Part shown: positions 694-14,009 of the stretch, in pieces
Numbering within the stretch: position 1 is the first letter of the stretch
Layout: every line of letters starts with the position of its first letter
From: Chryseobacterium sp. C-71
GTDB taxonomy: Bacteria > Bacteroidota > Bacteroidia > Flavobacteriales > Weeksellaceae
Assembly: GCF_020911865.1 (NCBI RefSeq)
Contig: NZ_CP087131.1
Location: 1,488,001 to 1,552,000 of the forward strand
Direction of reading: 5' to 3'
DNA length: 64,000 nucleotides
Made by a program: the position numbers and the translations under genes
Notes under the pieces: generated by a model
Told to the model about the DNA's origin: nothing
What the model saw: the letters and a program-made list of their open reading frames with translations, nothing else
The model's database searches: none

Positions 694-724
694 AAAAAAG
701 TTTCGATAATAAATTACCGAAACT
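694..724 (-). terminator. Terminator at end of RNA ligase operon
   Basis: Read on the minus strand, AGTTTCG pairs with CGAAACT and is followed directly by a run of six T. The stem overlaps the RNA ligase stop codon, so it closes the exonuclease-cREC-DinB-ligase unit. The rest of the spacer 519-693 holds only AT-rich sequence and a fragment resembling common intergenic repeats. Confidence 0.6.
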
Positions 725-1736
725 ATACTTTTAGAGTCATTAACTCTTCTTTTACAACGTCAATGACTAAAGAATTCAACTTTTTGTTGATCCTTTTCTG
801 TTCTTCTTTTTCTATGGTTGTGAAAACTTTCGGGAAATCTTTTTCAAAATCTTCCAAAATATCCTGTGAAAAAAGACCAATCACTTTGCCAATCATCTTA
901 GGTTCAAATTCACCAATTTTGCTGACAACATTATTTAACCTATTTACAGTTGCATATTTTTGGATTTCTTCCCAAATATTTTTGGCATTTTCACTGAAAT
1001 GAACTTCTTTTTGAATCGGTCTGTCTTTCCTAATCATTTTAGATTTCTCAGTCCACTTTTCATTTTTATTTTTCAAAATGACTCTTGAACCGTTTCCAAA
1101 ATATTTAGTTTTCAAAGTTTTGACGATCGTTCCTTCACACATATTATTCTCGATTTCCGGCAATCCCAACCAAGCCGGAATTTTAGAATCGAAAACATTA
1201 GGGAACTTCAAAGCCTCTTCCAAAGTCCCTTGAAATAAGATTTTAGCGTAGAAAAATCCGGTTTCCTCGAAAATTTGATTAACCAAATCTGTATCCAAAT
1301 AAGTTGTGCCGTTCAACTTGATGTCGAATGCGTAAAATTCGTTGTGAGGTGCATATTCAACACCTTTTTGAACTTTTATTGCATCTTTTACTGGCTCAAC
1401 TTCTTTATGTTTGTAACCGCCACCGAACAATTCACCGTAGATTACTACAGTTTCCAAATCCGGATGGATCGTTTTCACTTTTTCGAACAAATCAAATACG
1501 TTTTTTCTGTAACGCTCCAACATTTGATGGGCATTATAGAATTTTTCATCCTTATCGATGAAAGCGGTTCTTTTGGCTATTTTAATCTCCTTTCCATCGG
1601 TAATGAAAGAGAAATTAGCGCCATGAACCTTTTCCTGTATAATGAAAACCTCATCCCCAAAACCCTGCAACCTGATCTGATCGATCACGCGGGTTTGGTA
1701 AGCATTTTCTATAGAGTTATATGTTTTGAAAATCAT
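723..1736 (-). CDS. Rnl2-type RNA ligase
   Basis: A 337-residue ATP-dependent RNA ligase of the T4 Rnl2 family, which seals 3'-OH/5'-phosphate breaks in structured RNA through a lysine-AMP intermediate. Visible nucleotidyltransferase motifs are motif I EKVHGAN with the adenylated Lys36, motif III IYGELFGG near residues 99-106, motif IV CEGTIVKT near 200-207 and motif V VILKNK near 219-224. It is the last gene of a tight operon (5 nt after the DinB-like gene) downstream of a tRNA array on the same strand. The obvious substrates are cleaved tRNAs, or exons of the interrupted tRNAs at 5268 and 5617; this is inference. Family assignment is firm. Confidence 0.9.
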   Translation of the reverse strand: MIFKTYNSIENAYQTRVIDQIRLQGFGDEVFIIQEKVHGANFSFITDGKEIKIAKRTAFIDKDEKFYNAHQMLERYRKNVFDLFEKVKTIHPDLETVVIYGELFGGGYKHKEVEPVKDAIKVQKGVEYAPHNEFYAFDIKLNGTTYLDTDLVNQIFEETGFFYAKILFQGTLEEALKFPNVFDSKIPAWLGLPEIENNMCEGTIVKTLKTKYFGNGSRVILKNKNEKWTEKSKMIRKDRPIQKEVHFSENAKNIWEEIQKYATVNRLNNVVSKIGEFEPKMIGKVIGLFSQDILEDFEKDFPKVFTTIEKEEQKRINKKLNSLVIDVVKEELMTLKV

Positions 1737-1741
1737 TTTTT

Positions 1742-2305
1742 TTAATTTTTAATTGTTTCTAATTCGTTATTCCTCATCTGAGTAACGTGTCTTTGGGCGT
1801 GAAGCGATAGGAAATAAATGTATTCATACACATTGATTTTTCCTAGCTCATTCACCGTCATTGTTGTTTTGCAGAGAAGACCTTCGCCGTTTTTCATTAA
1901 GTCTAAATAGTTTAAACATTGATTATACTGCTGAGAAATTAAACTTCTGATTTTATTTAAATTTAATTCTCCTTTCGGCTCCATGTGTTCTGGTCTTATC
2001 CATTCAAAAGCTCCGTATTCACCTACTTTATCAAAGTTTTCTTTATTGAAACTGTAGTTTTTTATTTCAAGAGTTAAGTCAAGATTTTGATAATTACGCA
2101 TTGCTTTTTTTGAACCTTTTTCAATGAGAATTAACAAATAAAAGTTCGTCAGATAAATGTGTTCTAAAATTTGTTGAATCGTCCAACCTCCGTTTGAAGG
2201 CTGAAAGTTCAACGTTACATTATCTTTTTCAAACCATTTGTCGACCTCATCAAAACTGAGTTTCAAATGCGTTTTTATATCCTGAATTAATCTAAAAATG
2301 TCCAT
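1742..2305 (-). CDS. DinB-fold four-helix protein
   Basis: A 187-residue protein of the DinB/YfiT metal-binding four-helix superfamily. The typical GGWTIQQILEHI segment near residues 39-50 supplies one histidine, and the late LHAQRH motif supplies two more, matching the three-His metal site. DinB proteins often act as thiol-dependent transferases or hydrolases, but no substrate can be read from the sequence. The start codon overlaps the stop of the upstream cREC gene by one base, and the ligase gene begins 5 nt after its end, so it is translationally linked to the RNA-processing genes. Confidence 0.75.
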   Translation of the reverse strand: MDIFRLIQDIKTHLKLSFDEVDKWFEKDNVTLNFQPSNGGWTIQQILEHIYLTNFYLLILIEKGSKKAMRNYQNLDLTLEIKNYSFNKENFDKVGEYGAFEWIRPEHMEPKGELNLNKIRSLISQQYNQCLNYLDLMKNGEGLLCKTTMTVNELGKINVYEYIYFLSLHAQRHVTQMRNNELETIKN

Positions 2306-2676
2306 TATAATTTTTTAAAGTTGTTCAAAAGACCTTCAATATTTGCCTTTCCAACAGGATTCATTGAGTGACAGTAGAATTTTGGTAAGTCTAAATAGTT
2401 ATCCATACAATATTCTACCAACCATTTTGCACAATCGTAACCTGTTTTTTCAACAAATTCCTGAGAATCTGGGGTTAAATAATGTTCATCGGCAAGGTCG
2501 TGGTCAAAAGAGATCATTTCCGGAAGTCCTTTTTCCAAAATCCTGTTGACAAATTGCTCGTAATTTCGAACGGTATGCCAGTCTTTTCTGAGGAAAATAT
2601 CCTGTTTAGTGTACTTATGTGCCTCAATAGGATATCTTATATCATCCAGAAATAATAATCTTTTTGTTAGTTCCAT
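2305..2676 (-). CDS. cREC: cyclic-phosphate-processing receiver-like protein
   Basis: A 123-residue stand-alone receiver-fold protein. LLFLDDIRYP at residues 7-16 gives the acidic pair of receiver domains, and ISFDHDLADEH near residue 60 is the second acidic/histidine motif of the 'cyclic-phosphate processing receiver' family. That family has been predicted to handle 2',3'-cyclic phosphate RNA ends left by tRNA-cutting toxins. It lies 4 nt downstream of the exonuclease gene and overlaps the DinB gene. Alongside an Rnl2-type ligase, the natural reading is end-healing before ligation. Enzymatic activity is a family prediction, not proven here. Confidence 0.75.
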   Translation of the reverse strand: MELTKRLLFLDDIRYPIEAHKYTKQDIFLRKDWHTVRNYEQFVNRILEKGLPEMISFDHDLADEHYLTPDSQEFVEKTGYDCAKWLVEYCMDNYLDLPKFYCHSMNPVGKANIEGLLNNFKKL

Positions 2677-2680
2677 TGCT

Positions 2681-3226
2681 TTAATTTTTTAAAACTTGAT
2701 ACAATAATTTTGCTGTGTTAAAAGCGTCATCTGCACCATTATGATTACTCCCTTCAAATTCTATATTTCTTGTCTGAAGTTCTTTCAATAGTCCAATTGG
2801 CTTTTCACCAGTCATTAAACTTATCAAGACTTTTAAATCAAGATACGTTTCACTGAAAGGAAATTTAACATCAAATTCTTTACACTGACTTTCCACAATC
2901 GATTTGTCGAATCCGCCATAACCGGCGTATGTTCTTCGTAATGAATTATATCTGTTTTTGATATTCGAACAGGCTTCTTTAAAAGAAAATCCGTCTTTTT
3001 CTAATTTTTCAGAAGTGATTCCCGTAAGTTGTGTACAGTATTCACTTACCTCTGATTGTGTCGGTTTTATCAAGTAACTTCTTTTATCTTCGATACTTCC
3101 ATCCAACATATTGAGTTTGCAAATCCCGATTTCAATAATTTCTCTTTTTTGATTTTCAGGAGTTTGCCCTTTTTCCCAACACGTAGCTTCGATATCTATG
3201 ACTATTACTTTGTCGTATAAAAACAT
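2681..3226 (-). CDS. DEDDh 3'-5' exonuclease, Eri1/KapD-like
   Basis: A 181-residue DEDDh exonuclease. Motif Exo I is IDIEATCW with Asp11 and Glu13, a second aspartate sits in AGYGGFDKS, and the C-terminal HNGADDAFNTA holds the His and last Asp. The CW pair after IEAT and the overall pattern resemble the Eri1/3'hExo-KapD branch, whose members trim structured RNA 3' ends. It is the first gene of the tight exonuclease-cREC-DinB-ligase cluster; a 95-nt gap separates it from the YkuK-like gene. A role in trimming tRNA ends is likely but inferred. Confidence 0.8.
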   Translation of the reverse strand: MFLYDKVIVIDIEATCWEKGQTPENQKREIIEIGICKLNMLDGSIEDKRSYLIKPTQSEVSEYCTQLTGITSEKLEKDGFSFKEACSNIKNRYNSLRRTYAGYGGFDKSIVESQCKEFDVKFPFSETYLDLKVLISLMTGEKPIGLLKELQTRNIEFEGSNHNGADDAFNTAKLLYQVLKN

Positions 3227-3321: not shown

Positions 3322-3807
3322 TTACACCATCATATCAGCACAATTTGAACTTGCAAATGCGTAAGGTTTTGCCTTAAACACGTATCCCATTCCAAGAATA
3401 TATCCCATTGCGTCTTTCAAAGCAACGTTGGATTTAAAATCCGGATCGGTGTTAATGTCTGCGTGTACCTCCATTTCCACATCATAAGTTTCCAGAATAG
3501 AGCAAATGGCGTAGGCGATTTCTACGGATTTGTTGACTTCGTTCAACATTCGCTCTTTGATACTGATATTCTGTATTTCTCTTTCTTTTCTGATAAAGGT
3601 AAACGCTCCTTTTCCCTCACGAATAAAGACAACTGCCGTAGCATAATTAATGGCGTCACCATAAACGTGGGAGTCTGAACCCACACACACTTTCAGTCGG
3701 TGTCCATTTGCCTGTTCGCGGATGATGGCTTCTTCTACCAAATGTGTGATAGAGTGTTGGAAAAATTTTCCGGTCATGTTTTGCCATGTTTGTTGTTGCG
3801 TTTCCAT
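3322..3807 (-). CDS. YkuK-family RNase H-like protein
   Basis: A 161-residue protein of the YkuK/DUF458 family with an RNase H-like fold. CVGSDSHVYGD near residues 42-52 supplies the first acidic residues, and the later VHADINTDPD segment supplies further ones. Function in other bacteria is not established. It begins about 90 nt downstream of the last tRNA of the array on the same strand, so it may be read from the array transcript. The next gene is the Eri1-like exonuclease. I see nothing broken in it. Confidence 0.75.
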   Translation of the reverse strand: METQQQTWQNMTGKFFQHSITHLVEEAIIREQANGHRLKVCVGSDSHVYGDAINYATAVVFIREGKGAFTFIRKEREIQNISIKERMLNEVNKSVEIAYAICSILETYDVEMEVHADINTDPDFKSNVALKDAMGYILGMGYVFKAKPYAFASSNCADMMV

Positions 3808-3897
3808 TTTTTCTACATGTTTTAAATTTGTTTTATTTAAATTTTAATTTGTTAGTTGTGAATCATCAATTTTTTAATTATTGACCATTCGGTTTTG

Positions 3898-3968
3898 CAC
3901 TCCGAACTGGATTCGAACCAATACCATCAGTTTTGGAGACTGAGATGCTGCCATTACACTATCGAAGC
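3898..3968 (-). tRNA. tRNA-Trp (CCA)
   Basis: A 71-nt cloverleaf. Acceptor GCTTCGA pairs with TCGGAGT, the anticodon stem TCAGT/ACTGA holds loop CTCCAAA, and the T-stem ATTGG/CCAGT closes loop TTCGAAT. The discriminator is G and CCA is not encoded. This is the last tRNA of the array, next to the YkuK-like gene. Confidence 0.85.
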
Positions 3969-3976
3969 AATTTTTG

Positions 3977-4049
3977 TTGATTCATCAGGACTCGAACCTG
4001 AACAACAAGAGTCAAAGTCTTGTGTGCTGACCAATTACACTATGAATCA
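3977..4049 (-). tRNA. tRNA-Gln (TTG)
   Basis: A 73-nt cloverleaf with perfect acceptor TGATTCA/TGAATCA, anticodon stem CAAGA/TCTTG with loop CTTTGAC, and A as discriminator. The first base pair is U-A, as is common for Gln tRNAs. It lies 8 nt from tRNA-Trp. Confidence 0.87.
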
Positions 4050-4055
4050 GTTTCG

Positions 4056-4128
4056 CGGAACAGACAGGAATCGAACCTGTACCTCTAGTTTTTCAGACTA
4101 ACGTGCAGACCTTCTACGCCACTCTTCC
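4056..4128 (-). tRNA. tRNA-Phe (GAA)
   Basis: A 73-nt cloverleaf. Anticodon loop CTGAAAA sits in stem TTAGT/ACTAG, and the T-arm is ACAGG TTCGATT CCTGT. The acceptor GGAAGAG/CTGTTCC has one G-G mismatch and the discriminator is G where Phe tRNAs normally have A, so charging may be altered. Confidence 0.8.
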
Positions 4129-4147
4129 AAGATTTTAAATACTTTTG

Positions 4148-4212
4148 TACGGAAAGAGGGAGTCGAACCCCCAAAACCTTGAGCCTAAATCAAGTGTGTC
4201 TACCATTCCCGC
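4148..4212 (-). tRNA. Leu-like (TAG) mini-tRNA without D-arm
   Basis: Acceptor GCGGGAA pairs with TTTCCGT over seven positions, the anticodon stem CTTGA/TCAAG holds loop TTTAGGC, and the T-arm GGGGG/CCCTC is sound. Only 11 nt lie between acceptor and anticodon stem, so no D-stem can form, and the long variable arm normal for Leu is replaced by 5 nt. Total length is 65 nt. It could be a decayed gene or a genuinely compact tRNA. Confidence 0.6.
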
Positions 4213-4234
4213 GGGTTTTTATAAATAATAATTG

Positions 4235-4255
4235 ATCAACTATCATTTATAAAAT
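4235..4255. repeat. 21-nt inverted repeat, left copy
   Basis: The 21 bases beginning ATCAACTATCATT are the exact reverse complement of 4600-4620. The two copies flank hairpin E1 and the Glu, Thr-like and Tyr tRNA genes. Confidence 0.8.
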
Positions 4256-4262
4256 TAGGTCT

Positions 4263-4338
4263 GAGAAAAGCTTGTCTATATTTATAAACTATGCCTGTTA
4301 TATTCGTAAAGATCTTCTGCGCTCGACAAACTTTTCTC
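4263..4338 (-). ncRNA. Hairpin RNA element E1 in tRNA array
   Basis: A 14-bp stem, GAGAAAAGTTTGTC with GACAAGCTTTTCTC (one G-U), closes a 48-nt loop containing GCGCAGAAGATCTTTACG on the minus strand. The same arms and loop motif recur at 4669, 4939 and 5089, always between tRNA genes on the same strand. There is no U-run, so it is not a standard terminator. Function unknown. Confidence 0.55.
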
Positions 4339-4356
4339 TTTTCCATTTAAACCTAG

Positions 4357-4429
4357 TACTCTATAAGGGAATCGAACCCTTGTTTTCTGCTCGAAAGGCA
4401 GGCGTCCTGAACCGTTAGACGAATAGAGC
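4357..4429 (-). tRNA. tRNA-Glu (TTC), copy 1
   Basis: A 73-nt cloverleaf: acceptor GCTCTAT/ATAGAGT, anticodon loop CTTTCGA, T-arm AAGGG TTCGATT CCCTT, discriminator A. It is closely similar to the second Glu gene at 5397, so one is probably a duplicate of the other. Confidence 0.88.
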
Positions 4430-4436
4430 GATAAAA

Positions 4437-4507
4437 CAAACTGACTAGGAATCGAACCTAAACAACAAGAGTACATTTCCTGCATGCTGCCATTACATTA
4501 TCAGCGG
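4437..4507 (-). tRNA. Aberrant tRNA, anticodon probably TGT (Thr-like)
   Basis: The anticodon stem CAGGA/TCTTG closes loop AATGTAC, which places TGT as anticodon but leaves A instead of the invariant U at position 33. The T-arm TTAGG TTCGATT CCTAG is good. The acceptor CCGCTGA/TCAGTTT lacks its two outer pairs. The 3' half closely matches the Gln tRNA at 3977, suggesting it arose from a Gln copy. It may be non-functional in translation. Confidence 0.55.
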
Positions 4508-4513
4508 TGTTTG

Positions 4514-4597
4514 TGGAAGTAGTAGGATTCGAACCTACTCAGCAATAAAGCAACAGATTTACAGTCTGCCCCGACTCTCCAACTTCGGCGTACTTCC
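4514..4597 (-). tRNA. tRNA-Tyr (GTA)
   Basis: An 84-nt class II cloverleaf: acceptor GGAAGTA/TACTTCC, anticodon loop CTGTAAA in stem GCAGA/TCTGT, a long variable arm, and T-arm GTAGG TTCGAAT CCTAC. Discriminator A. Confidence 0.9.
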
Positions 4598-4599
4598 GG

Positions 4600-4620
4600 A
4601 TTTTATAAATGATAGTTGAT
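4600..4620. repeat. 21-nt inverted repeat, right copy
   Basis: Exact reverse complement of 4235-4255. Confidence 0.8.
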
Positions 4621-4668
4621 AAATGATTCAAATCTTCATTCTAGCTTCTAACATCTAATTTCTCATTT

Positions 4669-4747
4669 GAAGAAAAACAAAGCCTGTCATTATTTTTTTA
4701 GTTTGATATAAGAACTTCTACGCTCGACAAACTTTTACTTTTTCTTC
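4669..4747 (-). ncRNA. Hairpin RNA element E2 in tRNA array
   Basis: Two stacked stems (GAAGAAAAA/TTTTTCTTC and AAAGTTTGTC/GACAGGCTTT with wobbles) close a 37-nt loop with GCGTAGAAGTTCTTATATC. This copy and E3 share AGAAGTTCTTATATCAAAC, while E1 and E4 share AGAAGATCTTTACG, so there are two subtypes. Confidence 0.55.
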
Positions 4748-4773
4748 GGAACTAATCTCATTTTAGTTATTTG

Positions 4774-4855
4774 AGATGGTTATGGGATTCAAACCCACTC
4801 AGCTCACGCAACGGTTTTGCAGACCGCCCCGACTCTTCCACTTCGGCGAACCATC
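4774..4855 (-). tRNA. tRNA-Cys (GCA) with long variable arm
   Basis: An 82-nt cloverleaf: acceptor GATGGTT/AACCATC, anticodon stem GCGGT/ACCGT with loop CTGCAAA, and a class II variable arm of about 13 nt. The body matches the Tyr tRNA at 4514 almost block for block (CGCCGAAGT, GAGTCGGGGC, GCTGAGT). The discriminator is U, the main CysRS identity base. The T-loop is TTTGAAT. Normal Cys tRNAs have a short variable loop. Confidence 0.8.
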
Positions 4856-4938
4856 GTTTTTTATGAGTAATCAATAATGGGTAATGAATAATTTCCACAA
4901 TATTGATTATTCTTTTTTATTTAAATTTTCATTAAAAA

Positions 4939-4996
4939 TAAAGCTTGTCTTAATTTTTTGTTTGATATAAGAACTTCTGCGCTTTGACAAACTTTA
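4939..4996 (-). ncRNA. Hairpin RNA element E3 in tRNA array
   Basis: An 11-bp stem TAAAGTTTGTC/GACAAGCTTTA (one G-U) closes a 36-nt loop containing GCGCAGAAGTTCTTATATC. It lies in the 332-nt tRNA-free stretch 4856-5187 together with E4; the rest of that stretch is AT-rich filler with no ORF. Confidence 0.55.
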
Positions 4997-5088
4997 ATTT
5001 AACCTAAAAATTTATATTATGTTTAAAGCTTTCATCTTTCTTCATCCATCTTCCAACCTTCATCTATTAATTTTCATTTTTTGAGTTA

Positions 5089-5152
5089 AGAAAAAGTCTG
5101 TCTATATTGTGTTTTTGGCGTAAAGATCTTCTGCGCTTGACAAACCTTTTCT
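5089..5152 (-). ncRNA. Hairpin RNA element E4 in tRNA array
   Basis: A 14-bp stem AGAAAAGGTTTGTC/GACAGACTTTTTCT (two wobbles) closes a 36-nt loop with GCGCAGAAGATCTTTACGC. Fourth member of the hairpin family. Confidence 0.55.
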
Positions 5153-5187
5153 CTTCTCTTTTGAAACAATTACCATTTAGTTATTTG

Positions 5188-5259
5188 CGATTCTGGAAAG
5201 GCTCGAACTTTCAACTTCTGGTTTAACAGACCAGCGCTCTACCATTGAGCTACAGAATC
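5188..5259 (-). tRNA. tRNA-Asn (GTT)
   Basis: A 72-nt cloverleaf: acceptor GATTCTG/CAGAATC, anticodon loop CTGTTAA in stem CTGGT/ACCAG, T-arm GAAAG TTCGAGC CTTTC, discriminator G as expected for Asn. Confidence 0.9.
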
Positions 5260-5267
5260 ATTTTTTG

Positions 5268-5391
5268 TAATTTCGGAAGGATTGTTCATAAATTTTATTT
5301 TTAATTTTTTGTATTCACGAATCCTTCGGATTTCGAACCTTTAACCTTCGGCTTATGAAACCGATACTCTAACCCATTGAGCTACGAAATC
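5268..5391 (-). tRNA. tRNA-Met (CAT) interrupted by a 50-nt T-loop insertion
   Basis: Joining 5391-5333 to 5282-5268 gives a 74-nt tRNA: acceptor GATTTCG/CGAAATT, anticodon loop TTCATAA in stem TCGGT/GCCGA, T-stem AAAGG/CCTTC (outer pair A-C) and T-loop TTCGA+AT, discriminator A. Without removing 5283-5332 neither T-arm nor acceptor forms. The resulting 3' end lies 8 nt from tRNA-Asn, the normal spacing of the array, which supports the exon assignment. Elongator Met and lysidine-type Ile cannot be told apart by anticodon. Confidence 0.75.
5283..5332 (-). other. 50-nt intron-like insertion in tRNA-Met T-loop
   Basis: It lies between T-loop positions 58 and 59. On the minus strand it starts with AATCCGAAGGATTCGTGAAT, in which ATCC/GGAT form a small hairpin, and ends with ATGAACA. 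The Asp insertion at 5632-5681 has the same length, position and ends. Confidence 0.7.
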
Positions 5392-5396
5392 ATTTG

Positions 5397-5469
5397 TACT
5401 CCATAAGGGAATCGAACCCTTATTTACTGCTCGAAAGGCAGCCGTCCTAAACCATTAGACGAATGGAGC
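5397..5469 (-). tRNA. tRNA-Glu (TTC), copy 2
   Basis: A 73-nt cloverleaf: acceptor GCTCCAT/ATGGAGT, anticodon loop CTTTCGA, T-arm AAGGG TTCGATT CCCTT, discriminator A. Near-duplicate of the gene at 4357. Confidence 0.88.
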
Positions 5470-5475
5470 AAATTG

Positions 5476-5547
5476 TCTGGAAAGCAGGGTTCGAACCTGC
5501 GACCTCCCGCGTCCAAGGCGGGTAAACAACCACCGTTATCTTTCCAG
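5476..5547 (-). tRNA. tRNA-Pro (TGG)
   Basis: A 72-nt cloverleaf: acceptor CTGGAAA/TTTCCAG, anticodon stem CCCGC/GCGGG with loop CTTGGAC, T-arm GCAGG TTCGAAC CCTGC, discriminator A. Confidence 0.9.
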
Positions 5548-5564
5548 TTTTGCAGATTCACTTC

Positions 5565-5602
5565 AAAAATCTTCTCCGAGAGACAGTCGGATCGGAAATT
5601 TT
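5565..5602 (-). other. Structured hairpin between tRNA-Pro and tRNA-Asp
   Basis: AAAAAT pairs with ATTTTT outside, and TCCGA with TCGGA inside, around loop GAGACAG. It fills the 69-nt gap between the two tRNA genes. On the minus strand it contains GAGAAGAT, weakly like the E-element loop motif. Possibly a processing or terminator-like hairpin. Confidence 0.35.
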
Positions 5603-5616
5603 TCCGTGAACCTTTG

Positions 5617-5738
5617 CGGTCTATGCGAGATTGTTCATCATCACATATATTTTTCTTTTGAATTCACGAATGCTTTGCATTTCGAACTCGCAGTGCCTGA
5701 GCGACAGGCAGGCAGGTTAGCCATTACCTCAATAGACC
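5617..5738 (-). tRNA. tRNA-Asp (GTC) interrupted by a 50-nt T-loop insertion
   Basis: Joining 5738-5682 to 5631-5617 gives a 72-nt tRNA: perfect acceptor GGTCTAT/ATAGACC, perfect T-stem GCGAG/CTCGC with loop TTCGA+AT, and anticodon loop CTGTCGC with stem CCTGC/TCAGG (one mismatch at the loop side). The discriminator is G, correct for Asp. Without removal of 5632-5681 the 3' half cannot fold. The anticodon region matches usual flavobacterial Asp tRNAs apart from a base change after the anticodon. Confidence 0.75.
5632..5681 (-). other. 50-nt intron-like insertion in tRNA-Asp T-loop
   Basis: Same T-loop position (58/59) and same length as the insertion in tRNA-Met. It starts AATGCAAAGCATTCGTGAAT and ends ATGAACA. 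Its hairpin is ATGC/GCAT where the Met copy has ATCC/GGAT, a compensatory change. The middle 20-odd bases differ. Confidence 0.7.
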
Positions 5739-5745
5739 TTTTTTG

Positions 5746-5830
5746 CGGAGAGCAAAGGAATTGAACCTTCACTACTGTCGTAGAACTCATTAGCAGTAAG
5801 CCGCAACAAACCAATATTTGCCTACTCTCC
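5746..5830 (-). tRNA. tRNA-Ser (GCT)
   Basis: An 85-nt class II cloverleaf: acceptor GGAGAGT/GCTCTCC, anticodon stem GCTTA/TGAGT with loop CTGCTAA, variable arm CTAC/GTAG, T-arm GAAGG/CCTTT with the unusual loop TTCAATT, discriminator G as expected for Ser. Confidence 0.85.
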
Positions 5831-5835
5831 TTTTG

Positions 5836-5909
5836 TGACCTCGACAGGGATCGAACCTGTAACCCTGGGTTTAGAAAACCCATGCTCTATCCAATTGAGC
5901 TACGAGATC
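5836..5909 (-). tRNA. tRNA-Arg (TCT)
   Basis: A 74-nt cloverleaf: acceptor GATCTCG/CGAGGTC, anticodon loop TTTCTAA in stem TGGGT/ACCCA, T-arm ACAGG TTCGATC CCTGT, discriminator A. Confidence 0.9.
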
Positions 5910-5913
5910 TTTG

Positions 5914-5987
5914 TAACCCCAGAAAGATTTGAACTTTCAACCCCCGGTTTAAAAGACCGGTGCTCTAACCATTTGAGCTATGAGATT
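5914..5987 (-). tRNA. tRNA-Lys (TTT)
   Basis: A 74-nt cloverleaf: acceptor AATCTCA/TGGGGTT with wobbles, anticodon loop CTTTTAA in stem CCGGT/ACCGG, T-arm GAAAG/CTTTC with non-standard loop TTCAAAT, discriminator A. Confidence 0.87.
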
Positions 5988-5994
5988 CTATTTG

Positions 5995-6068
5995 TAATCT
6001 TAGAAGGGCTCGAACCTTCAACCTTTGGTGTCGTAAACCAACGCTCTATCCAATTGAGCTACAAGATT
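5995..6068 (-). tRNA. tRNA-Arg (ACG)
   Basis: A 74-nt cloverleaf: acceptor AATCTTG/TAAGATT, anticodon loop TTACGAC in stem TTGGT/ACCAA, T-arm GAAGG TTCGAGC CCTTC, discriminator A. Confidence 0.9.
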
Positions 6069-6076
6069 ATCTTTTG

Positions 6077-6150
6077 TAATCTCAGAAGGACTCGAACCTT
6101 CAACCTTCGGCGTATCAGACCGATGCTCCAATCCATTGAGCTATGAGATT
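6077..6150 (-). tRNA. tRNA-Ile (GAT)
   Basis: A 74-nt cloverleaf: perfect acceptor AATCTCA/TGAGATT, anticodon loop CTGATAC in stem TCGGT/GCCGA, T-arm GAAGG TTCGAGT CCTTC, discriminator A. Confidence 0.9.
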
Positions 6151-6159
6151 TTCACTTTT

Positions 6160-6232
6160 GGGTATCTCCGGGGATCGAACCCTGTTCTCCGGTTCCACAG
6201 ACCGACGCTTTACCAAATAAGCTAAAGAAACC
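6160..6232 (-). tRNA. tRNA-His (GTG), first gene of the array
   Basis: A 73-nt cloverleaf: acceptor GGTTTCT/AGATACC (one T-T mismatch), anticodon loop CTGTGGA, discriminator C as in His tRNAs. The base before the 5' end is T, so the usual encoded G-1 is missing. A terminator ends only one base upstream. Confidence 0.82.
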
Positions 6233-6799: not shown

Positions 6800-6928
6800 T
6801 TACAGTAAATAATTTTCAAAGCAAGCACATTTCGCCTCATCTAATATCATCCATTCATATCCAAACGATCCCTTTAGTACAGGGCGATCGCATAGATTTA
6901 AACTGATATGTGCTCTTTGTATTGTCAT
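6800..6928 (-). CDS. 42-residue small ORF of unknown function
   Basis: Starts MTIQRAHISLNLCDRP and ends CFENYLL. The ATG at 6926 is preferred because a good -7 box (TATCTTTG, 6942-6949) lies just upstream, while a longer reading would start before the promoter. With the terminator at 6742 it forms a complete small transcription unit next to the tRNA array. No family recognised; it contains three cysteines. Confidence 0.45.
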   Translation of the reverse strand: MTIQRAHISLNLCDRPVLKGSFGYEWMILDEAKCACFENYLL

Positions 6929-7087: not shown

Positions 7088-8107
7088 CTAATACCTAAAC
7101 ATTCTATTTCGTCCTGTTTTATACCTCGAAATATCTTTTAAAATCACATCATCATCAGGATTAAAATGTTTTAATTCATTGACGATTTCGGAACGGCTGT
7201 TGATATTTTCTGCAATGATATTGTAGGCAATATTTCTTGTGGATTTTTGTAGTCGCTGATCTTTTTTAAACTCAATTTTCATGGCTTCCAAATACACTAT
7301 TTTTTTATCAGGAGATGTATTTTCATATAAATACTGAATTTCCTTTTCTAGTTGACCGATTTCAGAAATATTTGCAAAATAATTTTGAAGACAATTGAAT
7401 GCTTCTTTATTTTCCTTCCAGCCTTGTAAAAGTATTTGTTGGGCTTCGTTCGGTTTATCCATTTTATTTCGATATACCAAAGAGGCTTTTACCATCTGAT
7501 GGCTCTGCAGATAATCATCTACTACCATTTGATAAAAGATCAATGCATTTTCAGAATCGTTAATTTCTTTGTATAAATCACCTACTTTTTCTTTTTGTTG
7601 AAGCTCTTTGTATAAAATAATCGCTTTATCATATTGTTTTGCTTTCACATAACAGTTGGCTGCATCTGCTTTGCTTAGTACTTTTTTCAAAAAAACAACT
7701 GCTGCTTCGTTATAAAAACCACCTTCCTCTAATGTTGCGGCAGCACGATAATTATCTTTTAAAAGATTCATGTAAACAATAGCCGCTTTTTTGTATTCGT
7801 TATCTTCAATGTGTTTTCTGGCTATATCTTCATATATACTTCGCAGTTTATCAAACAATGAAGTATCTATAGACAAACCACCGCCTCCATAATTTTTTGT
7901 TGGAGGAGGCTGAGGATCTTTCTCCTGATTTTGCAAAAGAACGATAAGCACAATGGCAGCTGCGGCAAAAAATATAAATTTGAACAAACTTCCTATAACA
8001 GTTGAGAGATCTGTTTGAGATAATTGTGCAAAAATCGCAATCAATTTAAAAATTACAAGAACAAAAAAGGCCGTCAAAAACTTTTCTATAAACTTTTGCT
8101 TTTTCAT
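7088..8107 (-). CDS. Membrane-anchored TPR-like repeat protein of MoxR operon
   Basis: A 339-residue protein with two N-terminal membrane segments (about residues 9-27 and 39-60), a proline/glycine linker, and then helical repeats resembling tetratricopeptide units (for example YKKAAIVYMNLLKDNY, FYNEAAVVFLKKVL, YDKAIILYKELQ). The start overlaps the end of the 560-residue gene by four bases, so the two are translated together. It is the last gene of the MoxR/vWA operon and probably a scaffold on the inner face of the membrane. Function within the complex is inferred. Confidence 0.65.
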   Translation of the reverse strand: MKKQKFIEKFLTAFFVLVIFKLIAIFAQLSQTDLSTVIGSLFKFIFFAAAAIVLIVLLQNQEKDPQPPPTKNYGGGGLSIDTSLFDKLRSIYEDIARKHIEDNEYKKAAIVYMNLLKDNYRAAATLEEGGFYNEAAVVFLKKVLSKADAANCYVKAKQYDKAIILYKELQQKEKVGDLYKEINDSENALIFYQMVVDDYLQSHQMVKASLVYRNKMDKPNEAQQILLQGWKENKEAFNCLQNYFANISEIGQLEKEIQYLYENTSPDKKIVYLEAMKIEFKKDQRLQKSTRNIAYNIIAENINSRSEIVNELKHFNPDDDVILKDISRYKTGRNRMFRY

Positions 8108-9786
8108 TTCTTTCCTGATTTTAAAATATCCATATCTTCACTGAATAAACGGTAAAGAAGAACCAATACGCCAATAATTAATATCCAAACCAGCCAATTG
8201 TATCCGAAAGCGGCAATCAAAGGATAAAAAATATACAGCAAGGTACTTCCCAATATAACAATCAAGATTAGTTTAATACTTTCCGAAACATAACTTCCTC
8301 CCATATCAAACGGCTTTTTCCTGATAAAGTAAGAATACACGCCCACAAGACCTACAACGGCAAGCAACAGCCAAACAATTTCGGAAAAGGAAATCTCTTT
8401 TTTAACATGAGCATCCTCTGTTGCTTTTAAAGCATCGTTTTGCAGATTATCATTAAAGACGATTTGAGGATCAGTTTCATGGTTTGTGCCATAAATCCTT
8501 GCAAGAGAATCACTGATCGTTGTTTTTCTCATTTCCAGAATATCATCAGCTAGAAGTTTTTTAGATATTTTAGACATCTTGTTTGAAGGGTCTTTCTGAA
8601 TAGAATCCAGAATTTTTTTATGGTAATTTTTTGTTTTAAGATCTACTACATATTCAATTTTTTTCAGGTACATTTTTTTTAATGAATCTCTGAATTTCTT
8701 TTCTTTGGCTCTGTATTCTTGAATTTTCCAAAGCATTGCTTCTTTTCCTCCTTCGCTATTGAACGTTTGTTTATAATCATTAACCAACCAGCGTCTTTCA
8801 TTTCCAAATACAGAATCAACCTTCATATCGATAGCGGTAAAACCGGATTGAAAAATCAGCCCATCGTTATTTTCTGTCTCTGGAGCCGTTTCAACAGTGT
8901 TCTCGTTATATAAATCTGTAGAAACCTGTTCTTTTGATGCCTGCTCTTTACCAAATTCAAAAGCGAAAATAATCACTACAATAAGTGCTAGGAAAACGGC
9001 AAACATCTTTTGTGCCCCTGTCATTTTCAATGGTGATCTTTCATTTTGCGCTCCATCACCTTTCTCACCTCCGGCACCACCAAACATCCCCCAATCGAAA
9101 TTCCCAAAACCGCCTCGCAATGTAGAATGAATATCCAATGGAATTCCTAAATAAACTGCCCGCTCAGGATACTTTGTAATGTATTCTATATATTTCAGAA
9201 TCTCAGCCTGATCTCCAGCTTTTAGCTTTTCCAAATCGAATGGCAGATTTTTCATCCAATCTTCATCTGTTGTAGGATTGAGAAGCTGCTCCAGCAATTC
9301 ATCATCATTCATATCCACTTTAAAACTTCTGATTCTTTGTGGAATGAAAACACTATTCGATGGCTTTTTTAATTTTGCTTCTGTTATTGGCGATTCCTGT
9401 AATAATGTTACCCAATCTATTGTTTCATTTAATTTAACTAATCCGAAATCAGGATGCATGATGATGTATTGAGCTTCAATATTTCTCCAGTCTTCTGAAT
9501 TTATTTTTGGATAAAAATCGGTGTTTTCAGGAATGAACAATTGATTATCAAAACATTGAAAATAAGAATTCTTTCCAATTTCTTCAGGAGCTTGACCTCC
9601 AAAAATAAGAAAGAAGCCATACAAAATATTCGGTTCAAGAGAAGGAATAGCAAAGGTCTGTACAACGTTAAGATCAATTCCCAATGATTCTATTTCACGA
9701 AACCATATCAAAGGTGAAGCACTTCTGATGAGAAGGCCTCTTTTGGGATAACTGTTTTTCGGAAAAGGTTTAATCTTCAACTCCAT
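8104..9786 (-). CDS. Multi-membrane-segment bpX-like partner of the MoxR/vWA system
   Basis: A 560-residue protein of no familiar enzyme class. A soluble N-terminal domain (to about residue 250) begins with KPFPKNSYPKRGLL. A glycine-rich stretch leads to a first membrane segment (near 258-275), then a charged coiled-coil-like region, and three more hydrophobic segments near 470-550. It overlaps the vWA gene by 17 nt and the TPR-like gene by 4 nt. Its position matches the variable bpX partners of MoxR-vWA-beta-propeller ternary systems. That assignment rests on gene context, not on a recognised domain. Confidence 0.5.
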   Translation of the reverse strand: MELKIKPFPKNSYPKRGLLIRSASPLIWFREIESLGIDLNVVQTFAIPSLEPNILYGFFLIFGGQAPEEIGKNSYFQCFDNQLFIPENTDFYPKINSEDWRNIEAQYIIMHPDFGLVKLNETIDWVTLLQESPITEAKLKKPSNSVFIPQRIRSFKVDMNDDELLEQLLNPTTDEDWMKNLPFDLEKLKAGDQAEILKYIEYITKYPERAVYLGIPLDIHSTLRGGFGNFDWGMFGGAGGEKGDGAQNERSPLKMTGAQKMFAVFLALIVVIIFAFEFGKEQASKEQVSTDLYNENTVETAPETENNDGLIFQSGFTAIDMKVDSVFGNERRWLVNDYKQTFNSEGGKEAMLWKIQEYRAKEKKFRDSLKKMYLKKIEYVVDLKTKNYHKKILDSIQKDPSNKMSKISKKLLADDILEMRKTTISDSLARIYGTNHETDPQIVFNDNLQNDALKATEDAHVKKEISFSEIVWLLLAVVGLVGVYSYFIRKKPFDMGGSYVSESIKLILIVILGSTLLYIFYPLIAAFGYNWLVWILIIGVLVLLYRLFSEDMDILKSGKK

Positions 9787-12169
9787 ACTCCAATACTTGA
9801 TCTATAAAAGGTTGTAAGTAAGCTTCGTACATTTCTGCAATCGTTTTTACTTTCAGCAGCGTATGATCTGGCAGGTAATATTCATAGCCTCCAAACTCCG
9901 CCTCAGAAGCTAAAGCCATCCCAGTATGCCTTGAAGTCGGCACATAAAATTCGGGAATATTGGCATTAATACTTCTGAAAGTAAGCATTCCGCGAGAGTC
10001 TGCAATAATTTCGCTTCCGTCTGAAAAAGTGAACTTATTTTTATTCTGATTGGCAACCATCACAATGGGAGATTGGTTTTTATACTGCGCCATTGAACTT
10101 CCCCAAAACTTTAATTCATATTTAGAAATCACCAAATTATTATTATCATTAATTCCAATCGTGGTAAAGTTGCTGGTAAATTTATAATTGTTCTGCTTTA
10201 ATTTATCGACTTCAATCTTTAATTTTTCTATATTTTTATGAATTTCAGGATCATTTTTCACCAAATCTACAGATACTTCACCTTCAAGATTAATCATAAA
10301 AATTGTAGGTAAATTATTTTGATGCAAATAAAAATATCTGTCGAAATAGACCAATTCCATATTTAACGGAATATCAAAACCGGAAACATTAAGCTCGGAA
10401 TATTCTTTAGTTTCAATATTCAGTTTTGAAATGAGTTTTTTATCCTGTTGATATTGACATAAAATAAACTGTTGCTGTTTATTTTTAGCCAAAGCAAATA
10501 TTCCTCTGTCTTTCACAGATATATTTTCAAACAAAACCTCGCAGCCACGAAGAATTTTATAAATTTCATAATAATCTCTATTGTAATAATTATCTGAAAG
10601 ATATGTTCTCAGCAATTGCTTTTTACTGCTTAAAATAAAAAATTCTCCTTCATACATAAACTTTGCAATCTGTTGCTGCGGAAGCGGGAAAAGTAAAGGA
10701 TAATTGAGAGGAACATCTGTTTTTTCACCTTTAATATTCTGGCTCACTGAACTTTTACTTTTTCGGTGCGGCGGATCTGCCCAAAGTTCCTTCAGTGGAA
10801 GTATAATCTTTTGAATGTGCTTTCTTGCTCCTAGATGGTGTTTATAAAAATTCAGTTCGCCATCTGCCGACGTGGTTACCAAAAACTTCAGTCGGTTTCT
10901 GTTTTCATGAATCACTTTTTGCAGATTTTCATTCGCTAAATTTTCATGATTGGTGATAAAGAAAACTTCCAGATCTTTTTCTGTACGTTCTTTTTTGAAG
11001 AATAAATCTAATGCTTCCGAAACATCTAATGTTCCGCTTACCAAATTCAGATTTTCAATAACCTCTTCCACACGGTCTAATGTCATAGCAATGCTTGATT
11101 GCCCCAAAGCATACACCTTACACTCCGAATGTGCTTTCGGATGTTTGATAACAGCAAGGGCTGAAGCGAAAGACAAAACTTTCGGGGTTCCCCAGTTTTT
11201 CAGAGAAGTATCTATTAAAATAATTCTTTCAAAAACATTTTCTTCGGGCGGAATTTCACGTTGAATATATAATGCTTCATTATTCGCCACACGATTTATA
11301 AAAACCTCATCTTCATTGGCAAATTCTGACAACAGCATTCTGTGAAGATCTCCTTTGTTGGTAATATCAGAAATGCCGCCAAACGGTTGTGCGCCGGGAG
11401 AAAGATGCCGCATCGGGATTTTCAGTCCGCTCCAGATTCTTTTAATTAAGCTTCCTATCTGAAAAGTTTTAGGCTCTTCAATAAGTTCCTGAATAAAGTC
11501 TTTTTCAGATTCTGTTGTGGTTTGTTGTTCTCCTATTTCTTCTTTAATTTCCGGTTCGTCAACTAAACCACGCATGGCTTTAATAATTGATTCTGTCGTC
11601 GGAAATTTTTTGTGAATAAATGATAGCGTCTCAATATCTTTATGGTAAACATCGTTTGTCAGCGGAAGCTTATGAGCAGCATCAGCAATCTTATGAGATC
11701 CTCTGAAATAAGAGGTCAAAATGTATTCTGAGTCTTTAGCAGAAACCGAGTAACCAGAATCTTTAAAAATAGTCTGAAAAAGATTGATCCTGTTTTGCCC
11801 TTTCTTCATCGAATTCCCTATTTTACTAAGATTTCCAAGCAATTGACAGGCGTTTTGAATATCAAGATTAAAGGTACTTTTTTCCTCAGTCCTATATTTT
11901 CTCAAAAAATAAAAAACTCCATCCAGATTCAGATAGCCGTCCTGAGTTGCATACATTGTCAGAAGAAAAGCCCCAAAATGTGGAAAACCCTGCGGTTGAA
12001 GTTCTTTTAAAACTTCAATAATGTACGGTCTGTAAGCAATCGCTCCTCCTCCATGAGGAACAGAAATCAGATTATTCTCAAGATATCCCGACAAGTCACG
12101 GACATCCTTATCTGTGATCCACTCCCAGAAATAATCTTCGTATGATTGAAAATATTCTTTTACATTCAT
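9770..12169 (-). CDS. vWA / beta-propeller protein of a MoxR ternary system
   Basis: A 799-residue protein. An alpha-helical N-terminal part (to about 200) is followed by a linker and a von Willebrand A-like domain beginning at about 313 with RIILIDTSLKNWG, where IDTS takes the place of the metal-site DxSxS motif. From about 470 the sequence is beta-rich with repeated short strands (FFILSSKKQ, GIFALAKNKQQ, YFYLHQNN), consistent with a propeller. It overlaps the 245-residue gene by four bases. vWA proteins usually work with MoxR AAA+ ATPases in assembly or remodelling. The vWA call is likely; the propeller is inferred from strand pattern. Confidence 0.65.
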   Translation of the reverse strand: MNVKEYFQSYEDYFWEWITDKDVRDLSGYLENNLISVPHGGGAIAYRPYIIEVLKELQPQGFPHFGAFLLTMYATQDGYLNLDGVFYFLRKYRTEEKSTFNLDIQNACQLLGNLSKIGNSMKKGQNRINLFQTIFKDSGYSVSAKDSEYILTSYFRGSHKIADAAHKLPLTNDVYHKDIETLSFIHKKFPTTESIIKAMRGLVDEPEIKEEIGEQQTTTESEKDFIQELIEEPKTFQIGSLIKRIWSGLKIPMRHLSPGAQPFGGISDITNKGDLHRMLLSEFANEDEVFINRVANNEALYIQREIPPEENVFERIILIDTSLKNWGTPKVLSFASALAVIKHPKAHSECKVYALGQSSIAMTLDRVEEVIENLNLVSGTLDVSEALDLFFKKERTEKDLEVFFITNHENLANENLQKVIHENRNRLKFLVTTSADGELNFYKHHLGARKHIQKIILPLKELWADPPHRKSKSSVSQNIKGEKTDVPLNYPLLFPLPQQQIAKFMYEGEFFILSSKKQLLRTYLSDNYYNRDYYEIYKILRGCEVLFENISVKDRGIFALAKNKQQQFILCQYQQDKKLISKLNIETKEYSELNVSGFDIPLNMELVYFDRYFYLHQNNLPTIFMINLEGEVSVDLVKNDPEIHKNIEKLKIEVDKLKQNNYKFTSNFTTIGINDNNNLVISKYELKFWGSSMAQYKNQSPIVMVANQNKNKFTFSDGSEIIADSRGMLTFRSINANIPEFYVPTSRHTGMALASEAEFGGYEYYLPDHTLLKVKTIAEMYEAYLQPFIDQVLEYGVED

Positions 12170-12903
12170 TCTCTGGCTTTTTGAGTCAAACGAAACGAGC
12201 TTACGGAGAGTTTTCGGAAATCAATTTTATCGATAGCCAAATAGCTTCCATTTTCGCTCCAGACTATTAATTTATCGGAATCTTCATTGTATTTTTTCTG
12301 TAATAATGAGCTCAGATTTTTAAATTCAAAATCAAATCCGCTTGGTAAAAGATGACCGTCTTTCATCCAAAAAGTTTTCCCCGGAAAACCTAGTAAAGGA
12401 GTTCCTAAAAATAACGCTTTGTCATCGATGATCATCCATTGCAATTTTTCAAGCTTAAATTTTGGAAGTTCAATGATTTTATCTTTAACATCATCAATTA
12501 AACATAAAAGTGCCGCTGCAGGATGTTCATTTTCTCCTTTCTTTAGATAAACTTCAATCTTTTCCTCAATTCCGAAAAAATTATTATTTGAAACAGGAAA
12601 AGTTAGCTTTAATGCCTTATCAATCGGTGACCAAAGTAAGCCTGTTCTCACTTTTTTACTTGGAACCAACGCATTTTTTCTCAATAAAAGTCCGTTTTTT
12701 AATTCATACAATATAAAATTAGGAAGCTGTCTCAATTCCGAAGAAACGGCTTGTTCAGCTGTAAAGGCTTTCAGCCAGATTACATCATCGTCTCCTGCAA
12801 TCTGAATATTTTTCCAATTGCGGATCGCCCCTAAAGAATATTCATCTTTACGGGGAATCTCAGCCCAAAATTCTTTTAAGCGCTCTGAAGAATCTTCTGC
12901 CAT
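12166..12903 (-). CDS. bpX-type partner protein of the MoxR/vWA system
   Basis: A 245-residue protein, mostly beta-strand in character. The region GTPLLGFPGKTFWMKDGHLL (about 167-186) is distinctive and resembles partner domains of MoxR-vWA-beta-propeller systems. It overlaps the ATPase gene by 28 nt and the vWA gene by 4 nt, so it is certainly part of the unit. No catalytic motif is visible; a role in substrate or partner binding is inference. Confidence 0.55.
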   Translation of the reverse strand: MAEDSSERLKEFWAEIPRKDEYSLGAIRNWKNIQIAGDDDVIWLKAFTAEQAVSSELRQLPNFILYELKNGLLLRKNALVPSKKVRTGLLWSPIDKALKLTFPVSNNNFFGIEEKIEVYLKKGENEHPAAALLCLIDDVKDKIIELPKFKLEKLQWMIIDDKALFLGTPLLGFPGKTFWMKDGHLLPSGFDFEFKNLSSLLQKKYNEDSDKLIVWSENGSYLAIDKIDFRKLSVSSFRLTQKARE

Positions 12904-14009
12904 AAGCTTTCAATTTCTTTTTGAATATACTGTTTCTGTTCTCCATTGGCGATCCAATCGCAACGGGTTTGAAGATATCTCAGTTTGTCTTTTATAACAT
13001 TTTGCTCTTCGAAGCTCAAACTCCCGTTTTCCCATTGATCAAACAGTATCTTCACATCTTTCATCACTTCTTCAGGATTCGGAGTTTTGTTCTGCAATGC
13101 CTGCGGATGAGATTGTGGATTTTCATCTTTTTCAATAACTCTATTGATGATTCCTTCAAGAATTTCAATCTGTTCTTCGGTATCCCAAATATGTTTCAAC
13201 ACCCATAAATCTGAAAGAATGGCTTCATTTCTACCACAGATTAATGCACTTGCGGCGATCAAATTCTGCATTTTTACCGCTCTACGATCCGAAATAGTAA
13301 TTCCTGTATTGCGAAGGTTGATAATGGTATTAAGATATGCTTCATAAATTGGCTTTAAATCTACAGTTTTGCATAATCCCTGAAGTTCTTTTATCTCATG
13401 AGCCAAAATTTCAGGAATGTCTGAATCTATATTGTTTTCAAGTTTTCTTCCTGCCAAAAGAACCTGCTGAAGAAGATCAGGATGTACGTAATCTACATTG
13501 ATTCTTACCAAAAAGCGATCGAATAATGCATTCAAAGCTTCATCTTCGGGAAGAACATTGCTTGCGCCCACAAACATTAACGCCGGCAAATGTTTTGTTT
13601 CTTTTCCTCTTTTGAAAATCTTTTCGTTCAAAGCCATTAAAAGGGAATTCAGAATCGCCGAGTTCGCATTGAAAATTTCATCAAGAAAAACCAGCGATGC
13701 TTCCGGCATCATCCCGTCTGTATTCGTAAAAAGCTCTCCTTCTTTCAGTTTTCTGATATCGAAGGGACCGAAAATCTCGTTCGGTTCTGTGAAACGTGTT
13801 AAAAGATATTCGAAGTTTTTGCCATCTTTTAAGGTTTTTGCTAAAGTTCTTACCAAAACGGACTTTGCTGTTCCCGGAGGTCCGTACAAAAATGCATTTT
13901 CCCTTGCCAGCAAGCAGATTCCAAGTAAATCTACGACATCGTTTTTACCAACGAAAGTGTCTTTTACGTAGTTAAGAACCTTATTTAGTTTTTCAATATT
14001 TTGAGTCAT
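12876..14009 (-). CDS. MoxR-family AAA+ ATPase
   Basis: A 377-residue AAA+ ATPase of the MoxR/RavA group. Walker A is GPPGTAKS at residues 43-50, Walker B is LVFLDEIFNANS, sensor 1 is FVGASNVLPED, and the arginine-finger region follows in ALFDRFLVRI. The C-terminal 100 residues are helical. These ATPases remodel or activate partner vWA proteins. It lies at the head of the overlapping group of genes running to 7088, after a 102-nt gap from the helical protein at 14112. Confidence 0.9.
   Translation of the reverse strand: MTQNIEKLNKVLNYVKDTFVGKNDVVDLLGICLLARENAFLYGPPGTAKSVLVRTLAKTLKDGKNFEYLLTRFTEPNEIFGPFDIRKLKEGELFTNTDGMMPEASLVFLDEIFNANSAILNSLLMALNEKIFKRGKETKHLPALMFVGASNVLPEDEALNALFDRFLVRINVDYVHPDLLQQVLLAGRKLENNIDSDIPEILAHEIKELQGLCKTVDLKPIYEAYLNTIINLRNTGITISDRRAVKMQNLIAASALICGRNEAILSDLWVLKHIWDTEEQIEILEGIINRVIEKDENPQSHPQALQNKTPNPEEVMKDVKILFDQWENGSLSFEEQNVIKDKLRYLQTRCDWIANGEQKQYIQKEIESLWQKILQSA

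Follow-up and report, generated by a model that had tools for sequence, protein, structure and literature searches.

A putative hairpin-guided miniature mobile element of Bacteroidota with copies in the tRNA T loops of an RNA-repair locus

Introduction

The closest described systems each share part of the features of the element reported here. IS200/IS605 insertion sequences and REP elements resemble it in that a hairpin is recognized and guide pairing picks the ends and the target; REP elements are similarly small, at 21-65 nt, and the Bacteroidetes TnpA of subclass 2.6 is described as atypical, with undetailed structures nearby (excerpts of PMC6006769 and PMC8266576). Noncanonical tRNA introns of archaea and algae, including those at 59/60, are likewise small and located in the T loop, and bacteria are said to lack protein-spliced tRNA introns (excerpt of PMC4090602). 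Blocks of nucleotides are also inserted in genes as the byps of Magnusiomyces mitochondria (81 positions), and T4 gene 60 has a 50-nt gap with a stem-loop (excerpt of PMC5009743). Rsr-Y RNA-RtcB operons combine Rsr/TROVE, tRNA-mimicking Y-like RNAs and an RNA ligase, as does the locus examined here (excerpt of PMC7790460), and beta-propeller MoxR-vWA systems have been described in an article that mentions tRNA and TROVE once each (PMC7159879).

The locus compared with these systems lies in a window of 64,000 nt (the whole stretch of DNA analysed) from Chryseobacterium sp. C-71, where two tRNA genes carry 50-nt inserts in their T loops. From sequence comparison, the insert is judged to be a Bacteroidota-wide miniature non-autonomous mobile element that is hairpin-guided, and its mobility and fold are well supported. 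A literature search, largely without subscription papers, found no description of the element.

Methods

Copies were sought with two covariance models and with pattern scans. The model R1 was made from 10 copies and built on sense T arms; R2 is a general model. The pattern scan covered one genome per species for 84,980 species with a pattern that requires TGAA before the element, so most T loops escape it. The element length of 44-55 nt holds for 90 of 101 parsed rows, 11 rows with an end outside the strict pattern having been dropped. Among matches in other genera, 47 of 49 rows were read, and two weak rows (L153) were omitted. The dS set for tRNA-Cys was drawn from the RNaseH_like gene found near most of its loci (Table 1) in 12 species with at least 99 ungapped codons, giving 66 pairs.

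Results

The tRNA-Met and tRNA-Asp genes form cloverleafs only once 50 T-loop nucleotides are set aside in each, as originally observed. In tRNA-Asp, the stems GGTCTAT/ATAGACC and GCGAG/CTCGC enclose TTCGAA-[50 nt]-T, and the corresponding stems of tRNA-Met are GATTTCG/CGAAATT, with one G-U pair, and AAAGG/CCTTC, with four of five pairs. ARAGORN places the 3' end of tRNA-Met wrongly. Coordinates first given as 5283-5332 and 5632-5681 describe the same removal as those in Table 1, shifted by one nucleotide, a difference left undecided by the flanking A's. The common insert ends and the compensatory hairpin pair between Met and Asp are real by sequence; both inserts are indeed 50 nt, an identity of size that is coincidental, the element being 44-55 nt elsewhere. 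The source genome (4.22 Mb) holds two element copies at no more than three mismatches, and R2 gives a third, weaker match at the start of another gene (row L239).

Identity with an Rfam ribozyme or intron was rejected, given the element's length of 44-55 nt and the lack of an Rfam match: no group I or group II intron catalytic core matched in the window at the gathering score or in eight loci at an E-value of 0.1. Bacterial self-splicing introns are far larger than the element. Elsewhere in the array, the tRNA-Cys (GCA) at window positions 4773-4855 is 83 nt long by ARAGORN and has a long variable arm, which is unusual for tRNA-Cys.

Table 1. Features of the array, its inserts and their neighbours, in window positions
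Feature	Position	Strand	Remarks
50-nt putative mobile element, T loop of tRNA-Met	5282..5331	-	Between TTCGAA and T; R1 match 5276-5342, 86.3 bits
50-nt putative mobile element, T loop of tRNA-Asp	5631..5680	-	Between TTCGAA and T; R1 match 5625-5691, 85.3 bits
tRNA-Met (CAT) gene with insert	5268..5391	-	Shortened version in ARAGORN and Rfam
tRNA-Asp (GTC) gene with insert	5617..5738	-	Missed by ARAGORN and Rfam
tRNA array	3897..6232	-	17 by ARAGORN; Asp and a degenerate Thr-like stretch added by eye
T4 Rnl2-type RNA ligase	723..1736	-	Pfam PF09414, PF18043
cREC cyclic-phosphate processing receiver domain protein	2305..2676	-	PF20274
RNase_T-type exonuclease	2681..3226	-	PF00929
RNaseH_like protein, array neighbour in relatives too	3322..3807	-	PF04308; 20/23 tRNA-Cys loci
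MoxR-vWA-beta-propeller ternary system: bpX3, bpX0/bpX1, bpX2, bpMoxR	7088..14009	-	Weak TPR match in first ORF

Related Chryseobacterium genomes, proposed at the outset as the place to look for further T-loop insertions, were searched with R1, which finds 68 places in 48 of 173 genomes, 63 of them in a T-loop-like context, so a chance origin of the insert is excluded. By eye, the tRNA hosts in the genus are Met, Asp, Gln, Pro, Cys, Tyr, Phe and Arg(TCT), with tRNA-Cys as the largest insert-bearing group, and permuted tRNA-like RNAs are hosts as well. These T-loop copies lie in tRNA arrays of 3 to 16 tRNAs by ARAGORN; the loci without an ARAGORN tRNA are the permuted-RNA loci and L007, an insert-bearing tRNA-like RNA between an RtcB-like ORF (named from its translation) and another ORF. 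The T stem retains all five pairs in 57 of 64 rows (L098:1536 included), four in five rows and three in two. Five genus rows fall outside the T-loop set, namely L094 (in an IS), L095 (degenerate Cys), L098:1536 (degenerate Ile), L096 and L099; L097 and L100:1558 are counted as T-loop-like, yet lie within degenerate tRNAs. L099 (a gene start), L096 and L165/L196 (a longer repeat) are probably something else than the element.

All 68 T-loop copies read (63 of the 68 genus rows and 5 of the 47 from other genera) are in sense orientation, as found with a model itself built on sense arms. Empty T-loop alleles exist for several tRNAs: in tRNA-Pro, GCAAG TTCGAAT CTTGC has the counterpart GCAAG TTCGAA[...]T CTTGC, and most intact Met and Asp alleles differ by one loop base (TTCGAGT, TTCGATT).

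Taken together, the covariance models and pattern scans place the element in tRNA T loops, permuted Y-RNA-like RNAs, IS transposase genes, start codons and intergenic DNA. R1 at 0.001 matches 58 of 296 family genomes and 21 of 395 order genomes, samples that overlap the genus sample, and R2 at 0.01 matches 41 of 395 phylum genomes. Among the 47 rows from other genera, a clean T loop is seen in five (by eye Gln, Glu, Asn, Leu and His), the remainder being transposase genes, degenerate tRNAs and intergenic sites; one genome (G310) has 11 matches, several amid AT-rich text such as cttgaaacttgaaac. The pattern scan yielded 52 stretches, or 56 parsed matches, and we take all 52 to belong to members of Bacteroidota. 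Among 51 further rows, many in Flavobacteriaceae-like genomes sit at gene starts (ATGAA/element/A..), where the element end ATGARYAA supplies an in-frame start. An insert class confined to tRNA, as first proposed, is therefore abandoned, since transposase genes and dispersed intergenic copies hold the same element; a transposable repeat at many unrelated sites had been named as the finding that would speak against such a class, and many unrelated sites were found. IMG/VR gave no exact matches to one strict element pattern, and a plasmid search with the insert-carrying IS as query gave a single match, at 16%.

Several individual sites deserve mention. At L221, L228, L231, L232, L233, L252 and others, genes starting ATGAAA are interrupted by the element in their second codon, and ATGARYAA restores an in-frame start. 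Two elements occur inside one transposase gene at L145, L116 and L121. L241 (G511:C5:28500-38000) is a repeat array built of hairpin units (CTTTTGTTTCTTTTGCATCAAGGCAAAAG), and the loop of several units holds the element; at L162, L168, L186 and L195 (Pleomorphovibrio, Lunatibacter) the element lies, by eye, within an apparent group II intron RNA.

Its presence at many unrelated sites, transposase genes among them, indicates that the element is mobile. Empty sites place the gain point directly after (Y)GAA, precisely and with no target duplication. The clearest is an IS in G237, of which eight copies read tatgaa/tttggg with a gap of 0 and one copy has 52 nt there. The same 52-nt insertion point is occupied in IS copies of G315, G198 and G189 (98-100% alike in pieces), and an older IS relative in G053 (81% and 76% in pieces) has 51 nt at that point. 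The IS flanks of L197, L169 and L114 are dissimilar beyond a common left end; the IS therefore carried the insert along when it moved, using its own transposase or that of another copy. Around PF01797 matches, none of 30 loci (13 genomes; a subset of the matches) has the element beside a Y1 transposase, the best R2 E-value there being 0.11, and G491 and G876 hold several element copies each and no PF01797 match.

The fold consists of a TNC/GNA hairpin whose 3' foot, TTC, is able to pair with the flanking GAA, with the 5' junction, by eye, at a bulged A of the hairpin stem. Within the guide TTC-RY, the RY covaries with the RY of the element's own 3' end, RY-AA. The pairs GAA(flank)/TTC, TNC/GNA and RY/RY are formed in 99.6% of cells across 35 diverse copies. 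Because motif searches supplied the copies and an RY-AA end was a condition for entry into the 35, the invariant columns are partly imposed, and what was free to vary is the matching of one RY to the other. As a control, pairing drops to 13-41% when slid by 1-3 columns. Changes on both sides are present at the two RY pairs in 15 and 13 of the 35 copies, and the nucleotide preceding GAA is compatible with the first guide position in 33 of 35 (UA 19, CG 8, UG 6, other 2). Under a looser parse, 81 of 93 unique elements have complementary dinucleotides; two of the other 12 are wobble and several seem misparsed.

Conservation was followed in tRNA-Cys, whose insert has 23 distinct sequences. Over the 66 pairs, the median dS of the neighbouring gene is 0.90 (mean 0.93), and median divergence is 6.5% for the tRNA body (mean 8.3%), 4.8% for hairpin and guide (8.0%), 0% for the last 8 nt (7.2%) and 33% for the middle (31%). 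This drift of the middle argues against a very recent spread; exchange of arrays between species could make the true age of the Cys inserts shorter. One copy (L093) has GC/GC in place of the majority GT/AC. The bodies of insert-bearing tRNA-Cys vary by 4.7% (14 distinct sequences) versus 5.3% for intact ones (16), and acceptor and T-stem pairs are complete in all 14 insert-bearing sequences, which were selected for at least four T-stem pairs, a conserved start and the strict pattern.

In coding genes, antisense inserts occur in a GxxExxY-like gene (L188, L192, L207), an IS1182-like transposase (L254) and an IS3 orfA (L118/L225), the gene names being read from sequence. Three of four near-identical insert-bearing IS copies are otherwise damaged, L308 being without its 3' part and L309 and L310 gapped in the left piece. 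These antisense and damaged copies make routine mRNA splicing unlikely, and removal of the element from messenger RNAs is probably absent or infrequent. A sense-only bias was rejected as proof of splicing: the listed coding sites comprise 11 sense and 3 antisense types against a background of 124 sense and 83 antisense YGAA sites in the pieces examined, so the bias is not significant. Purifying selection in transposases was likewise rejected as proof, because recent insertions recurring at one site would also give low ratios. The IS256 copies of L116 and L155, which share the insertion point, have dS 0.79 and dN 0.055 over 125 codons; L175 and L182, in one genome and with identical inserts, have dS 0.14 and dN 0.018; and near-identical transposase pairs have ratios of 0.7-0.85. 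Many matches of that IS256 have open frames near 410 aa, and G220 has a single match. Insert-bearing RIE/TNIS copies are separated by no more than about 14 kb in G198 and 5 kb in G313 and may therefore be local duplications.

The tRNA array is part of an RNA-repair locus with an Rnl2-type ligase, Rsr/TROVE, Y-like RNAs and MoxR-bpX. The RNA ligase that had been noted near the tRNAs is of the Rnl2 type, and roughly 3.5 kb separate it from the Met gene; its link with the element is one of proximity only. The array neighbours also include a DinB gene, on the RNaseH_like/cREC/ligase side, and MoxR-bpX lies on the other side. Farther along the genome are Rsr/TROVE and, by eye, two exonuclease-like ORFs and a metallo-hydrolase-like ORF. 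Against Rfam YrlA the permuted RNAs score 35.7-40.3 bits, below the cut-off of 69, and several ordinary tRNAs also score 29-32 bits; the position of the permuted RNAs next to Rsr supports YrlA kinship. In the source genome the two permuted RNAs compared have intact T loops, and their counterparts in relatives carry the insert.

At L043 6700-7560 (-) (C1:1480700-1481560), permuted tRNA-like RNAs, with the T arm before the D arm, stand in a row near Rsr/TROVE, each preceded by a motif like AAGTGTCGTAGA..ACTTCG, with weak YrlA matches at 7196-7305 and 6807-6894. A Flavo-1 RNA at L043 8973-9063 scores 65 bits, above its cut-off, beside Rsr/TROVE. In the window, the repeat GTTTGTC..AGCG(C/T)AGAAG..GACARRC has four copies in array gaps (-), at 4270-4331, 4682-4732, 4943-4992 and 5096-5145, each with a 7-bp outer stem and, by eye, the look of a Y-RNA hairpin.

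Discussion

Insert conservation and sense orientation in tRNAs suggest that the RNA form of the element matters and that it is handled at the RNA level. The reading preferred here, to which somewhat less than an even chance is given, is that a mobile guided element, lying sense in T loops, is removed from tRNA precursors at the RNA level. Counting against it, the array tRNAs are not known to function in translation. The TTC-RY guide would select the target and hold both element ends together, and this guided holding would let the element enter and leave precisely; in the tRNA precursor, the same RNA fold would place both junctions side by side, and removal would restore TTCGAAT. The Rnl2-type ligase of the locus is one candidate among possible nucleases and ligases for the excision. 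Excision offers the simplest account, since conservation extends beyond mere arm shape to the end and guide signals. Of the new tiny tRNA introns originally predicted, the tRNA-only class does not survive, and an intron-like fate gains indirect support from the sense T-loop copies, the kept cloverleafs and the conserved hairpin and ends. A fuller version is proposed more tentatively: the copies may be mobile bacterial mini-introns of about 50 nt, with one hairpin and a five-base guide pairing in turn with YGAA and RYAA, which would be excised from the tRNA precursors of the repair locus and move by the same pairing.

The main rival to excision is retention as a structured T arm, an account considered somewhat less likely, in which the element is mobile DNA that stays in the RNA and the array RNAs are tRNA-like decoys, Rsr ligands or damage sensors whose enlarged T arm is tolerated or useful. 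The locus itself lends this some weight, as it contains Rsr/TROVE and permuted Y-RNA-like RNAs, some insert-bearing in relatives; YrlA has been proposed as an anticodon-nuclease competitor (excerpt of PMC7790460), and removal in coding genes looks unlikely. However, the unpaired end sequence (ATGA..AA) is conserved in place as well as the stems, and the hairpin would lock the CGAA of the T loop in pairing with TTCG. Selfish DNA only, with spare tRNAs hit as losable, no RNA-level event, and orientation and conservation due to chance, recent spread or array recombination, is unlikely. The element is mobile in many dispensable sites and arrays do decay (L095, L097, L098:1536, L100:1558), but hairpin and ends are kept over a dS of 0.90 with the middle drifting, no antisense copy is found among the 68 T-loop rows, and insert-bearing and intact Cys bodies vary equally. 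Translational bypass, with ribosomes hopping over the insert in protein genes, is very improbable: its last triplet is CAA or TAA, with no match to GAA, antisense inserts occur and bypass is inapplicable to tRNAs, even though the insert lies between codons in 10 of 11 listed sense coding sites, after GAA in nine, and phase 0 accounts for 73 of the 124 sense YGAA sites in the pieces examined.

If, as the preferred reading of excision has it, the insert leaves the RNA, bacteria would have tRNA introns far below self-splicing size, at a T-loop position reported so far from archaea and algae, with about 30 defined signal bases, each testable. If it stays, covariation would still disclose how a widespread miniature mobile element recognizes its target and its ends, and the element would be a marker for an RNA-repair locus that has received little study and contains a spare set of tRNAs.

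Insertion without target duplication is a property of IS200/IS605. The element shares it, as seen in the gap of 0 in the eight empty copies versus 52 nt, and it has guide pairing of the kind found in IS200/IS605 and REP, in the form of RY/RY and flank-base covariation, a likeness of pairing and not of enzyme. In contrast to IS200/IS605, with a hairpin at each end and the guide 5' of the hairpin, the element has a single hairpin and the guide 3' of it, and it has no GTAG, unlike REP, in which GTAG/GTGG stands 5' of the hairpin (excerpts of PMC6006769 and PMC8266576). A Y1 transposase gene is associated with IS200/IS605 and REP, whereas no copy of the element was found in the 30 Y1 loci examined. 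The element differs from archaeal and algal tRNA introns in occurring outside tRNAs too, and from byps and gene 60 in occurring in tRNAs, in having no matching landing codon and in its antisense copies. Compared with Rsr-Y RNA-RtcB operons, the locus has a near-complete tRNA array, an Rnl2-type ligase and MoxR-bpX, and its YrlA matches are below the Rfam cut-off.
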